64,000 nucleotides of DNA, taken from contig CP126207.1 of the NCBI GenBank assembly GCA_030272155.1, positions 2,170,001-2,234,000 of the forward strand. Direction: 5' to 3'. This stretch comes from Tetradesmus obliquus. Taxonomy: Eukaryota; Chlorophyta; Chlorophyceae; Sphaeropleales; Scenedesmaceae. Shown in pieces: positions 1,300 through 6,532 of the stretch. The position numbers were made by a program, and so were the translations under genes. Within the stretch, counting starts at the first letter, position 1. Every line of letters begins with the position of its first letter. The notes below the pieces were generated by a model. It made no database searches. It saw nothing but the letters and a program-made list of their open reading frames with translations, and was not told the DNA's origin.

Positions 1300-2014
1300 C
1301 ACTGGGTCTCATAAAGATTCTCGCCTCGTACATGCAGGTACATAGTCAAGATCCGTATGCATCTATTGGTGTGCTCAGATTGTGCGCAGCCTGCGTGCAT
1401 GTCCAGAAAACCGAGTTTACGTATGTCCCTGGGCGCCCTAAGAAACTGCGGGGATTTGCGTGTTTTGGCCCTGCTGTGCTGCTTCGAGTGAAACATAAAA
1501 AGTATGCTTGCATCTGACAGCAGCAGCAGGGCTGACCATGCACTGTGGGCTTGTGTGTGCTTCTGTGATGGCATTACATTGCTGGTGTGCACTCGTGATG
1601 TTCGCCCTGCCTGGCTTTGCTACTTGCAAATAACGCGTTTTGTGCATCTCGATAATTTGGGTGTGACACAGTGATGCAGCGCGCTGCAGCAGCAGCCCAG
1701 CTGGCCCACCTGCTGCCTGCAACCAGCTCCTGGCCCCTTGCTGTGCTGATGTGTGCTGTTGGCAGCCTTGCCCCAAGTACCGTTTTCGTTGCTGTTCTGT
1801 GCGGAAGTTACATGTGCTGAAAAGCAGTACTTCTGGGGGGTCGACAGCAGCAGCAGCACGCAGCACAGCAGGAGTGCATGCATTCAGCCTCTTCAGCCCT
1901 GCATTGTGTGCCTGTGGTAACCGTCCTTACACGTACGAGTTTGCGATTGATACTGTTGCAACTCAGATACTTGGCAGGCAAAAGGCCCTGTGAGAATGAA
2001 TATGAGACCCAGTG
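1300..2014. mobile_element. Non-autonomous CACTA/EnSpm-like element, 715 bp, nested in the unit
   Basis: The two ends are inverted repeats of 23 bp (1300-1322 and 1992-2014) that match at 20 positions. The outer 14 bases, CACTGGGTCTCATA, are perfect; three mismatches follow (AAG against TTC) and then six more matches (ATTCTC). The element is flanked by AGT on both sides (1297-1299 and 2015-2017). CACTA or CACTG termini with a 2-3 bp target duplication are the known signature of the EnSpm/CACTA superfamily. Short subterminal repeats also fit: GTACAT twice near the left end, and CTCGTACATG on the left against CTCGTACGTG read inward from the right. There is no ATG-started frame of convincing length inside; the longer open stretches start at GTG and are rich in Cys, Gln and Ala from CAG runs. 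It is therefore a MITE-like or deletion derivative that would need a transposase from elsewhere. It lies 188 bp upstream of the Tc1-like transposase ATG. Confidence 0.72.
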
Positions 2015-2865
2015 AGTATCGAGCCCCTGCATGGCATGGGTTTAGGGCTGTTGACGTGTGTTGCGAACCAGCAGCTCAGCCGCTGGTAATATTTGCAGTG
2101 ATACAGCATCGAAGTTCGCAGTTTCTGACTACTATCACCGGATGTAAGCATCGCTGCACGCATAGCTTTGCCGTTGCCAAGTTTGACTCGGCATGATCTT
2201 ACCACCTTGCTTGCTGTAGCGCGACAGGAATCCCTGATCACAACCGCGGAAATATACTATATGGCTTCAAATGTCGGATAGGAGCACGGCAGGAGCAGGA
2301 GGTCGGGCGAGGACGAGCAGGCATCACGCAATCGTGCAGCAGGTGAGGAGCAACAACCTGGCCAGACATCGATGTATTGCAACACGCATCCGCAGTTCAG
2401 AAGTGATATTTCAGTAGAACACACAGCGTGCTACCTAGCATGAGCATTGCAGCTGTGCAGCATGCTGGCCAGAGCAGCAGCTGCGCCCTCCTGGCAGAAC
2501 TGGTCTGCTGCATTTCAGCAGCAGCCAGGCTCTACACGATTTACTTATCAGCACCAGAACCTCCGCCAGTAACATACCATCTCTACTGTGCCATTGCCTC
2601 CTGCAGGCACATGTCAGGCATGGAGCATTGCTGCCAGGCACTCGGCAGCAGCAGCAGCGCGAGTGCCGCCAGCAGCTGTGGGTGCCAACACACCATGCCC
2701 ATCAACAACCAAGACAATCACGTTGCAGCAGGTATGAAATGCATCCAGCATATGCAGTGCTGTCACTACACCACATCAGCTGTTGCAACAGCTTGCAGCA
2801 ACCAAGTTGAACAGCAGCAGGCAACCCATCTGCATGAGTTGCGCAAGCAGTGCATGCACCAACCT
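2015..2865. other. Unassigned 851-bp spacer between the nested element and transposase stop
   Basis: No gene or RNA is recognised here. The visible content is one AGT target duplication (2015-2017), an AT-rich patch at about 2249-2262, purine-rich GAGCAGGAGG-like runs at about 2281-2325, CAG/GCA triplet runs (for example 2643-2657), and a possible hairpin at 2501-2527 (CTGCTG against CAGCAG around a CATTT loop). On the transposase strand this is the 3' side of the gene. No TGTAA, the usual green-algal poly(A) signal, occurs on the minus strand within it. One outer terminal inverted repeat of the Tc1-like element would be expected either here or in 1112-1299, but none is convincing. The block recurs in every unit. 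Confidence 0.5.
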
Positions 2866-4778
2866 CTACCTCAGGCCTGGTGGGGCATACAGCCCACCAC
2901 TGTTAATGATTGCCTGGTAGGTTGCTGGGAGGCTATCAATATCAGCCTGGACAGAAGCAGCTGGGTAGGCAAAGAACAATTCCACCAACTTGGCTATGCA
3001 CTCCTTGTCATTGGGCTTGTTGTTCCAGCGCGCATAACGCCAGGCTGTCATTGCCTGGGTCAGGTATGCATGCACATGCTCCACTACCTTGTGCATGTCA
3101 GGACTCAGGGCTGGCAAACTCAAAAGCCTGCCTGCAGGCCAGATGCCTAGCGACGCAAGCTCAGCCTTGGTGTGGGCTGTGCTGTTGTCCTGTGACAGCA
3201 GCCAGGGCGCGTGGCGCTGCAAACCCAGGCGTTCTGAGATGGTGTCCAGGTTGAGGTTGAGGTCCCAGATGCAATCCTCATACTCATCAGCTGTCATGCC
3301 TGTTGCCTCCTCATTTGTGGTGGTCTGCAGGTACCAGCAGCAGTGCAGGCAGCAGCACAGCAGCAGCGGCACGCGGCGGCAGGCCCAGGGGGAAGTTTAG
3401 CAAGGAGGCTGAACAGCTGTATAAGCCAGAATTAAACTACATGCTGCTGAAGGACCAAGCAGCATACAGCACCCTCAAGCTTGTGTTCAAGTGCAAGTGC
3501 TGCAACAGGAAGCACACAAGGCTGCTGGCACTGCAAACAGCATCCCGTGGCCAGCAGCCATTCGCATGCCACGTGTGCACGCGCAGGGGCAGCAAGCATG
3601 AGAGGTTGCTGTATCAATTGCTGGACCAGTCTGCAGCTGTTGACTGCTATGCTGTTGAGGCAGTTGCTATTAGCAAGAAGATACAGCTGCAGGTAGCTGG
3701 CAGCAGCAAGGGGCTGTGGCTGAACCGGCACAAGTGGGATGCCATGCTGCTGAAGCCACACAGCTTGCTGATTGAGGTTCAAGGGGAGCAACACATAGAT
3801 ACAGAGGATGGCAGGCGCAACAACCGGGGTGACACGCTGGCAATCAGGCAAGCCAAGGATGAGGCACTGGCAACAGCAGCACTGGCCTTTGGGTTCAGTG
3901 TGCTGTGGCTTCACGCGGGTGCTGCTGATGACCCGTGCGGCCGCGCCGTGCGCTGGGCAGCAGCTCTGCAGCAGGCGGTGCAGCACGTTACTGCTGGCAG
4001 GCCCCCCAAGCTGTTCATGGCATGAACTCACCCGGTAAGCACAGCCCTCCCTGTCCCATGGCATGCCAGTTGTGCCTGTGAAGAACTTGATCCACACAGG
4101 CCCCAGCTGGTAGTTGACGCCAATGATGTACTTCAGCTTGATCGTCTTGCGGTTGCGCGTGAGCCGTGGCATGCTCCAGGCAAAGTCCTCTGCATCGCTG
4201 CTATACCAGCCCCTGGTGCAGCATTGGCTGAGGCACATCACCTTTTCATCCACATACACCACCCAAGGCTTCTGCTCCTCAAACACCTGCAGCTTCTCAC
4301 CACACGATGTCACCCTGTCCCGCTTGTGCTGCGCGTCCAGGTAGGGCCGGTTGCGCACCTTGCCATACTGGAAGTGCGGGTCAATCTGCCTCATGTGCCT
4401 GGTCAGGGTCTCGCCGGAGACGCCAGCGGCTGTGATGATGTCACGCACCACGGGGTTGGTTGTCATGAGCGCGTGTACCGACTCGTACGGCCGCGGCCTG
4501 CCTGCTGCATACCAGTTGAGGCATTCAGCATAGCATGTGTGCGTCTGAGCATCAGTCAGTTTTGGCGGACGGCCGCTGCCTGACTCAGGGACGACAATGT
4601 TGCCGTCAACATCCATGCGCGGGCCCCAAATCCGCATGTATTGCAGTGGATTAGAGGGCACAGGCAGGCCTGCGTCCTCTAGCATGGTGCGCATGGCCGC
4701 TGTGGCTGCATTGACATTGCCCCTGTTGGCCCTGTATGCAAGGCCAGCGGCAGCCTCCAGGCCGACTGTCAAGGTCAT
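2866..4778 (-). CDS. IS630/Tc1/mariner-like DDE transposase, two exons, 401 residues
   Basis: Predicted cut-and-paste transposase acting on the ends of its own element in the nucleus. Exon 1 is 4778-4032 (residues 1-249) and exon 2 is 3324-2866 (residues 250-401, TAG stop). The N-terminal half looks like the paired helix-turn-helix DNA-binding region of this superfamily: a first helical segment at about 15-55, a GRPPK hinge (69-73, the family's GRPR-like AT-hook position) and a second HTH at about 105-135. The catalytic core follows: Asp177 in VVYVDEK, a KFFTGTTG strand near 231-238, Asp295 in SQDNSTAH and Glu331 in SPDMHKVVEH. Thirty-five residues lie between the second Asp and the Glu, so the triad is DD35E. 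Exon 2 contains no ATG near its start, which supports splicing. The ATG is preceded by an in-frame TAA four codons upstream. Length is slightly above the usual 340-360 residues. All catalytic residues are present and the frame is intact. The superfamily is clear; the subfamily is not. Confidence 0.85.
3325..4031 (-). other. Spliceosomal intron of the transposase gene (707 bp, phase 0)
   Basis: On the minus strand the donor is CGG|GTGAGT at 4032/4031 and the acceptor is TACCTGCAG|ACC at 3325/3324, preceded by a CTG-rich, pyrimidine-leaning tract. Joining them leaves a phase-0 junction between Arg249 and Thr250 and brings the second Asp and the Glu in frame with the first Asp. Read-through instead gives an open frame to 3432 (448 residues) whose last 199 residues have no transposase motif. 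The intron is almost filled by the oppositely oriented nuclease frame. Exact borders are inferred from consensus and family alignment, not from a transcript. Confidence 0.75.
3441..4025 (+). CDS. Zinc-ribbon PD-(D/E)XK-like endonuclease nested antisense in the transposase intron
   Basis: Predicted DNA endonuclease, 194 residues from the first ATG. The frame is open from 3261 but has no ATG before 3441; an upstream exon or non-ATG start could add about 46 residues that include GRPRGK, an AT-hook-like motif. Numbering here counts from 3303. A four-cysteine zinc ribbon comes first (C64-x2-C67, C89-x2-C92). A helix follows starting at KHERLLYQLL (Glu100), then a Vsr/DUF559-like nuclease core: Asp146 in KWDAML, Glu158-Val-Gln160 in LLIEVQGEQH, an RGDTLAIRQAKDEAL helix and the strand FGFSVLWLH. 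The third motif position is Gln instead of the usual Lys. The C-terminus has GRPPK. Fold assignment rests on this order of motifs, not on a search. The gene occupies the transposase intron in reverse orientation, so it could be a homing-type invader of the transposase gene or a partner nuclease of the transposon. No TGTAA poly(A) signal lies close downstream. Confidence 0.7.
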   Translation: MLLKDQAAYSTLKLVFKCKCCNRKHTRLLALQTASRGQQPFACHVCTRRGSKHERLLYQLLDQSAAVDCYAVEAVAISKKIQLQVAGSSKGLWLNRHKWDAMLLKPHSLLIEVQGEQHIDTEDGRRNNRGDTLAIRQAKDEALATAALAFGFSVLWLHAGAADDPCGRAVRWAAALQQAVQHVTAGRPPKLFMA

Positions 4779-4966
4779 GTTCTGCAGTTACAGTACAAAC
4801 CCTAGTCAGTGGTGAACCTTGGACATGAGCAGTAGTGACGCCGGCGGTGCTTGGTTGAGGGTGCGGCTTGGCTGTGCAGACGGCATTAGCATGCTATGTC
4901 ATTGTGTAGCACTGTATTGTGAATGCAGTATTGTCTGTTGAGTAATCATGAATATTTAATTGAAGT

Positions 4967-5681
4967 CACTGGGTCTCATAAAGATTCTCGCCTCGTACAT
5001 GCAGGTACATAGTCAAGATCCGTATGCATCTATTGGTGTGCTCAGATTGTGCGCAGCCTGCGTGCATGTCCAGAAAACCGAGTTTACGTATGTCCCTGGG
5101 CGCCCTAAGAAACTGCGGGGATTTGCGTGTTTTGGCCCTGCTGTGCTGCTTCGAGTGAAACATAAAAAGTATGCTTGCATCTGACAGCAGCAGCAGGGCT
5201 GACCATGCACTGTGGGCTTGTGTGTGCTTCTGTGATGGCATTACATTGCTGGTGTGCACTCGTGATGTTCGCCCTGCCTGGCTTTGCTACTTGCAAATAA
5301 CGCGTTTTGTGCATCTCGATAATTTGGGTGTGACACAGTGATGCAGCGCGCTGCAGCAGCAGCCCAGCTGGCCCACCTGCTGCCTGCAACCAGCTCCTGG
5401 CCCCTTGCTGTGCTGATGTGTGCTGTTGGCAGCCTTGCCCCAAGTACCGTTTTCGTTGCTGTTCTGTGCGGAAGTTACATGTGCTGAAAAGCAGTACTTC
5501 TGGGGGGTCGACAGCAGCAGCAGCACGCAGCACAGCAGGAGTGCATGCATTCAGCCTCTTCAGCCCTGCATTGTGTGCCTGTGGTAACCGTCCTTACACG
5601 TACGAGTTTGCGATTGATACTGTTGCAACTCAGATACTTGGCAGGCAAAAGGCCCTGTGAGAATGAATATGAGACCCAGTG
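4967..5681. mobile_element. CACTA-like nested element, unit copy 2
   Basis: Same termini and AGT flanks as the element at 1300-2014. Confidence 0.72.
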
Positions 5682-6532
5682 AGTATCGAGCCCCTGCATG
5701 GCATGGGTTTAGGGCTGTTGACGTGTGTTGCGAACCAGCAGCTCAGCCGCTGGTAATATTTGCAGTGATACAGCATCGAAGTTCGCAGTTTCTGACTACT
5801 ATCACCGGATGTAAGCATCGCTGCACGCATAGCTTTGCCGTTGCCAAGTTTGACTCGGCATGATCTTACCACCTTGCTTGCTGTAGCGCGACAGGAATCC
5901 CTGATCACAACCGCGGAAATATACTATATGGCTTCAAATGTCGGATAGGAGCACGGCAGGAGCAGGAGGTCGGGCGAGGACGAGCAGGCATCACGCAATC
6001 GTGCAGCAGGTGAGGAGCAACAACCTGGCCAGACATCGATGTATTGCAACACGCATCCGCAGTTCAGAAGTGATATTTCAGTAGAACACACAGCGTGCTA
6101 CCTAGCATGAGCATTGCAGCTGTGCAGCATGCTGGCCAGAGCAGCAGCTGCGCCCTCCTGGCAGAACTGGTCTGCTGCATTTCAGCAGCAGCCAGGCTCT
6201 ACACGATTTACTTATCAGCACCAGAACCTCCGCCAGTAACATACCATCTCTACTGTGCCATTGCCTCCTGCAGGCACATGTCAGGCATGGAGCATTGCTG
6301 CCAGGCACTCGGCAGCAGCAGCAGCGCGAGTGCCGCCAGCAGCTGTGGGTGCCAACACACCATGCCCATCAACAACCAAGACAATCACGTTGCAGCAGGT
6401 ATGAAATGCATCCAGCATATGCAGTGCTGTCACTACACCACATCAGCTGTTGCAACAGCTTGCAGCAACCAAGTTGAACAGCAGCAGGCAACCCATCTGC
6501 ATGAGTTGCGCAAGCAGTGCATGCACCAACCT

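Follow-up and report, generated by a model that had tools for sequence, protein, structure and literature searches.

A putative PD-(D/E)XK nuclease gene lies antisense in a predicted spliceosomal-type intron of a tandemly arrayed transposase gene of Tetradesmus obliquus: a possible homing intron

What is a frame for a homing-type nuclease doing inside the intron of a transposase gene? The question is raised by a locus of Tetradesmus obliquus that we analyzed within a stretch of 64,000 nucleotides (hereafter, the window), where the initial annotation had described a nuclease gene nested in reverse in a transposase intron and had read it as a parasite of a transposon. The whole window is a tandem array, with 17.45 copies of a 3667-bp unit, so that the intron with its nuclease frame recurs every 3667 bp from 3325-4031 on, in 17 full copies, with a partial one at 1-364. 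All 17 full units within the window carry the intron. The array may be genuine and recent, an extrachromosomal circle or an unrolled assembly, three readings that look alike in sequence alone. No tRNA genes were found in the window, and the six further frames of the unit gave nothing better than E 0.1 in Pfam. The DNA of the unit had no match in plasmids and phages, nor did the DNA of the end repeat in viral contigs. The features are collected in Table 1.

Table 1. Features of the first complete unit and of the array (positions are those of the window)
Feature	Position	Strand	Basis or remark
Tandem array, 3667-bp unit, 17.45 copies	1-64000		0 mismatches at period 3667
715-bp block, imperfect inverted ends CACTGGGTCTCATA..ATTCTC / GAGAAT..TATGAGACCCAGTG	1300-2014		flanked by AGT on both sides
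Inverted-repeat arm A, 24 nt	1992-2015		imperfect repeat, 88% complementary to 4966-4989
Inverted-repeat arm B	4966-4989		pairs with 1992-2015
Candidate nuclease 5' exon, ATG...CAG/GTATGA	2695-2731	+	phase-compatible with acceptor CTGCAG/GT at 3331
Transposase exon 2, Thr250-Arg401 and stop, with Asp295 (SQDNST) and Glu331 (KVVEHV)	2866-3324	-	frames
Predicted spliceosomal-type intron, 707 nt, GTGAGT...CTGCAG, phase 0	3325-4031	-	splicing extends IS630 match over junction
Upstream part of nuclease frame, ATG-less; would need a 5' exon or non-ATG start	3331-3440	+	weak
Putative antisense nuclease frame from first ATG, 194 codons and stop; zinc ribbon and PD-(D/E)XK/Vsr-like core	3441-4025	+	homology, model, codon preference
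Transposase exon 1, Met1-Arg249, with first catalytic Asp177 (VYVDEK)	4032-4778	-	recurs in every 3667-bp unit

The best evidence for an intron is the IS630 match that is regained across the predicted exon junction. When spliced, the putative transposase has 401 amino acids and matches the IS630 profile (NF033545) with an E value of 8.8e-6 over residues 64-347, a stretch that spans the junction; exon 1 alone matches with E 0.0073, and exon 2 alone does not match this profile. The gain from 0.0073 to 8.8e-6 across Arg249/Thr250 upholds the 707-bp transposase intron of the initial annotation. At 25.4 bits the match of the spliced protein lies far below the curated cut-off of 100 bits, and an assignment to the IS630/Tc1-mariner-type DDE transposases is supported at the level of a sub-threshold profile match. 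The spliced protein had no match in Pfam, PHROGs or PDB sequences, and no locus came out of a search of one viral record for the IS630 family. Since 707 nt equals 2 modulo 3 and the two exons lie in different frames, removal of the intron is needed. Its borders are of the GT-AG class, with donor GTGAGT and acceptor CTGCAG, and on the minus strand of 2869-4778 the motif GTRAGT occurs at position 4031 only. From these features we infer splicing in vivo.

Two other accounts of the interruption were set aside: a group I or group II intron, for which Rfam gave 0 matches at gathering score over the whole window, and unspliced read-through, since the 451-codon minus-strand frame that runs through most of the intron matched nothing in NCBIfam or PHROGs. 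The exon 1 frame (3432-4787, minus strand) continues without a stop across much the greater part of the intron, where it lies codon for codon opposite the nuclease frame. Within the putative transposase, D177, D295 and E331 make up a candidate D35E triad, their catalytic roles having been read by eye. The intron does fall between D177 and D295, as had been noted, but its placement in the most conserved part of the gene is not borne out, because the junction after residue 249 lies 72 residues past D177 and 46 ahead of D295.

The plus-strand frame within the intron is open from position 3261 to a stop at 4023-4025, with its first ATG at 3441. The part from 3331 to 4025 takes up 695 of the 707 nt of the intron (585 of the 707 when counted from the first ATG); intron and nuclease thus almost coincide. 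By itself the open length is weak evidence, since it was equalled by 15 of 1,000 dinucleotide shuffles of the intron, and we therefore relied on homology and codon bias, both of which oppose a chance open frame. With a codon preference trained on the transposase, the nuclease frame scored 0.303 bits/codon and the other five intron frames 0.081 at most, while the training exons themselves scored 0.413 and 0.432; the codon preference of the nuclease frame resembles that of the transposase. The earlier description of an intron largely filled by an antisense frame holds; the frame also has the zinc ribbon and the PHROG matches given below.

Both the zinc ribbon and the core are encoded downstream of the ATG at 3441. 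In the translation of 3333-4022, the hhalign alignment with viral relatives (see below) starts at residue 20, which precedes the first Met by 17 residues, and an HMM of the relatives gave 26.0 bits with the upstream part and 23.4 bits without it, a gain of only 2.6 bits. A candidate 5' exon would end at 2731, with alternative ATGs at 2440, 2611 and 2620. Four one-intron chains were found for the nuclease gene; because at least one such chain also arises in 51 of 300 shuffles of the region, we offer the candidate exon as an idea only. No two-intron chain was found in the window, and 9 of 300 shuffles have one. The CTGCAG at 3325-3330, acceptor of the transposase intron, is a palindrome and would, in a compatible phase, fit the nuclease on the opposite strand as an acceptor too. 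If a 5' exon ending at 2731 were joined at 3331, CTGCAG would act as acceptor on both strands, and the two genes may thus be interlocked via one shared palindrome. With a 5' exon outside the intron, which is weakly hinted at, the intron alone would lack a whole gene.

To what family does the frame belong? Against PHROGs it matched phrog_4538 (E 5.3e-7, the best stretch being the zinc ribbon and the next helix), phrog_9929 (zinc finger, 1e-3), phrog_9084 (homing endonuclease, 0.009) and phrog_559 (0.015), with no match to phrog_7140. Nothing in Pfam was significant (best UPF0167, E 0.12), and NCBIfam gave no match. The profile searches thus back the nuclease of the initial annotation through PHROG homing-endonuclease matches and not through Pfam or NCBIfam. 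Matches among PDB sequences were C2H2 zinc-finger chains (best E 0.0022), which we took to reflect cysteine spacing.

A search of IMG/VR viral contigs with the nuclease protein returned one distant phage match, L001; GTDB contigs, plasmids and phages gave no match. Relatives were further collected by scanning IMG/VR for DNA encoding IEVQGEQH, which yielded 55 stretches and, with L001, 56 frames, 18 of which were aligned with the frame from the window. D136, IEVQGEQH (147-154) and D176 are invariant in all 19 aligned sequences; IEVQGEQH is so because the relatives were chosen by it, while D136 and D176 lie outside the selection. The relatives share an RDxxK motif, of which the window protein keeps D176 but has Leu in the K179 column (at least 90% Lys); we did not count this lysine, which may or may not be catalytic, as defining. 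Against 11 relatives, hhalign gave a probability of 96.6 and E 5e-10. Part of this, as of the model evidence below, comes from selection, because the relatives were chosen by IEVQGEQH. What is independent of that choice is the PHROG matches and the score of the motif-free residues 1-140, which reached 14.7 bits against the HMM of the relatives. Among the 145 reported of 200 whole-protein shuffles the highest score was 4.0 bits, and with shuffling confined to residues 1-91 of the 254-residue frame, the full score of 26.0 was reached in 1 of 200. With single-sequence phmmer, the nuclease found only L001 and L011, on one contig, among the 56 motif-selected frames.

Like the phage nucleases of phrog_4538, 9084, 559 and 7140, the window protein has a zinc ribbon, an S..E helix, D, IEVQGEQH and D in the same order. 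It differs from them in sequence (16-27% identity), in the missing RDxxK lysine and in 15 extra alignment columns after the S..E helix. Four zinc-ribbon relatives were themselves compared with these families: phrog_559, 9084 and 4538 were matched by all four, and phrog_7140 (intron encoded nuclease) by three. Phrog_559, labeled "HNH endonuclease," was the best match of these four frames (L008, L019, L021 and L028), whose core is PD-(D/E)XK in look; some members of the family may thus be mislabeled. On viral contig L001, the IEVQGEQH nuclease (4863-5219) precedes a frame (5672-6163) that, judged by eye, resembles GIY-YIG.

The PD-(D/E)XK core has the order alpha-beta-beta-beta-alpha-beta, with D before, and ExK or ExQ on, the central strands. 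An AlphaFold2 model of the nuclease, of moderate quality (pLDDT 69.4, pTM 0.59), has a helix at 88-97, strands at 118-121, 137-140 and 145-150, a helix at 169-185 and a strand at 189-194, and it places D136 just before strand 137-140 and E148-V-Q150 within strand 145-150. This predicted order fits PD-(D/E)XK. Together with phrog_4538 (E 5.3e-7) and phrog_9084 (0.009), it sustains the Vsr/DUF559-like PD-(D/E)XK core proposed for the frame. At E<=0.001, Foldseek matched it to 44 viral models, whose query TM-scores lay at only 0.29-0.50. The 21 that are named comprise nine restriction enzymes, three DUF2726 proteins, five uncharacterized proteins and four homing or group I intron endonucleases (a Pithovirus protein, two phage homing endonucleases and a VSR homing endonuclease of an Enterococcus phage). 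No PDB chain was found at E<=0.001, the best being an XPB-Bax1 endonuclease complex at 0.067. Structure prediction thus agreed with the earlier proposal in element order and in the viral models, and fell short of it in TM-score and in the PDB. Neither of the two findings that were to refute the initial annotation, a model without structural matches to the PD-(D/E)XK fold and relatives that all have an ordinary nuclease-free intron, was obtained. The structural matches are also not fully independent of the sequence matches, because the model was built on phage relatives. Together, sequence and model support the notion that the frame encodes a nuclease with a zinc ribbon and a PD-(D/E)XK/Vsr-like core, akin to nucleases of phages and giant viruses.

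An imperfect inverted repeat of 23-24 nt bounds a 715-bp block of the unit. It is the best separated pair in the non-coding spacer, equalled by 1 of 100 shuffles at a mismatch score of -1 and by 0 of 100 at -2; over the whole unit it is unexceptional, with a score of 15 against a mean of 14.8 and a best of 20 in 60 shuffles. The block is a candidate direct-repeat block as in KolobokP, and no solo block was seen within the window. Alternatively, the repeat may mark the ends of a 2976-bp element, 2003-4978, flanked by TA; TA/TGAGACCCAGTGA...TCACTGGGTCTCA/TA is possible at 2001-4980, with the repeat running on beyond the TA.

ISL2EU elements carry a YqaJ nuclease. For KolobokE, passages of the source describe a PD-(D/E)XK lambda-exonuclease-like nuclease encoded downstream (PMC9587614). 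The unit described here is like both in joining a transposase and a PD-(D/E)XK nuclease in what would be one eukaryotic DNA transposon; unlike KolobokE, with its exonuclease-type partner downstream, it appears to hold a homing-type nuclease in an intron. KolobokP combines a DDE transposase with a homing-type nuclease of the His-Me class. Its direct repeats, ~450 or 660 bp long, have inverted ends of their own (11-18 bp); solo repeats are flanked by target duplications of 3-5 bp, and there are tandem (LTDR-INT)n multimers, whose formation its authors propose to be induced by the nuclease (PMC9587614). Our unit shares with it a DDE transposase and a homing-type nuclease, a direct-repeat block with inverted ends of its own, for which support is moderate, and tandem multimers. 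It differs in that these make up a single array of 17.45 identical units across the window, that the transposase match is to IS630, and that the nuclease is PD-(D/E)XK-like, not His-Me, and lies in the intron, not downstream.

Mirusviruses are described as carrying spliceosomal homing introns ("shintrons"), with 334 endonuclease genes counted within introns, including 16 VSR-like and 15 PD-(D/E)XK genes (PMC12768974). As in these, the endonuclease gene here would sit in a spliceosomal-type intron with canonical splice sites and no group I or II signature in Rfam; unlike in these, the host gene is the transposase of a DNA transposon. The nuclease is antisense to its host gene here, and the passages of PMC12768974 do not give the strand of the nested genes. 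The element thus resembles shintrons in gene architecture and KolobokP in element architecture, as far as the analogy goes. The arrangement had been put forward as new. A nuclease in a spliceosomal intron (PMC12768974) and one in a DNA transposon (PMC9587614) have each been described, so that novelty would be confined to the two together: among the papers listed from the open-access literature searched, which lacks most subscription papers, none reports a transposase gene whose spliceosomal intron carries a homing nuclease.

How, then, did the nuclease come to lie there? The intron anatomy, the frames, the homology, the predicted fold order and the array are observed; from them we infer expression of the nuclease, cleavage, its target site and homing. 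Our leading reading, tentative and held at a little short of even, is a transposon-borne spliceosomal homing intron, with a PD-(D/E)XK nuclease antisense in the intron of an IS630/Tc1-mariner-type transposase. In related elements whose transposase gene lacks the intron, the nuclease would cut that gene at the Arg249/Thr250 site; intron and nuclease would then be copied into the break during repair, and splicing would spare the transposase. For this reading speak the near coincidence of intron and nuclease frame, the PHROG and structural matches, the invariant D136 and D176, the IS630 match regained on splicing, the transposase-like codon preference and the mirusvirus precedent. Against it count the presence of the intron in all 17 full units, the Leu in place of the conserved lysine, the sub-threshold IS630 match, the weak hint of a 5' exon outside the intron, the moderate quality of the model and the lack of PDB matches at E<=0.001. 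Searches for transposase relatives gave none in IMG/VR (exons 1 and 2), GTDB contigs (exon 1) or PLSDB (spliced protein), none of which includes eukaryotes. The searches, all in non-eukaryotic collections, also turned up no empty site and no second family, nor any close relative, be it intron-bearing or intron-less; the scans would miss distant relatives because they need near-exact eight-residue stretches or tblastn similarity. The tandem array opens a rival, in that the nuclease may serve the element rather than parasitize it. In a KolobokP-like composite, which we hold possible if rather unlikely, the nuclease would be an accessory gene, the 715-bp block a long terminal direct repeat and the 2952-bp remainder internal; cuts in the repeat or in abutted ends would lead to multimerization by unequal exchange, and the intron site would be compact nesting, a scheme we rate no higher. 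The perfect (715 + 2952)n array and the inverted ends of the block with AGT on both sides speak for it, as does the precedent of KolobokP with its transposase, homing-type nuclease, direct repeats, target duplications and multimers, as passages of the source give them (PMC9587614). Against it stand the IS630 match of the transposase, the PD-(D/E)XK-like rather than His-Me nuclease, its position in an intron rather than downstream, the lack of a solo block in the window, and an inverted repeat that is moderately significant in the spacer but unexceptional over the whole unit.

We accordingly favour the homing intron over an accessory nuclease of the KolobokP type, although the two are not mutually exclusive. 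Both could hold if a homing intron had invaded the IS630/mariner-type transposase of a eukaryote and the resulting two-gene element were KolobokP-like, its nuclease homing into sisters and driving array amplification, a combination that we consider unlikely. Slightly less probable still is that an ordinary host or virus nuclease gene was caught in the transposase intron and has no role in mobility. Nested antisense genes in introns occur in eukaryotes, and the relatives of the nuclease in phages and giant viruses include many without a named role; yet the intron has little sequence outside the nuclease frame, and homing or group I intron endonucleases are what the PHROG matches and 4 of the 21 named structural matches point to. 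It is very improbable, finally, that 1300-2014 is an unrelated short transposon with CACTG ends and a 3-bp AGT duplication, or that the true element is 2003-4978 flanked by TA, the array being a plain satellite or a circle that the assembly has unrolled. The inverted repeat is compatible with either choice of boundaries, and zero mismatches over 17 copies are also expected of an unrolled or amplified circle, but this account leaves the nuclease in the intron unexplained and changes only how the unit is delimited.

Among the papers listed from the open-access literature searched, spliceosomal homing introns are described in viruses only. If the homing intron holds true, nuclease-driven mobility of spliceosomal introns would reach cellular genomes and give a concrete route of intron gain, here through a transposon's parasite that splicing spares. 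Homing-type nucleases would then seem to have been taken up by DNA transposons on more than one occasion, in KolobokP and in the element described here, possibly as engines of tandem amplification.
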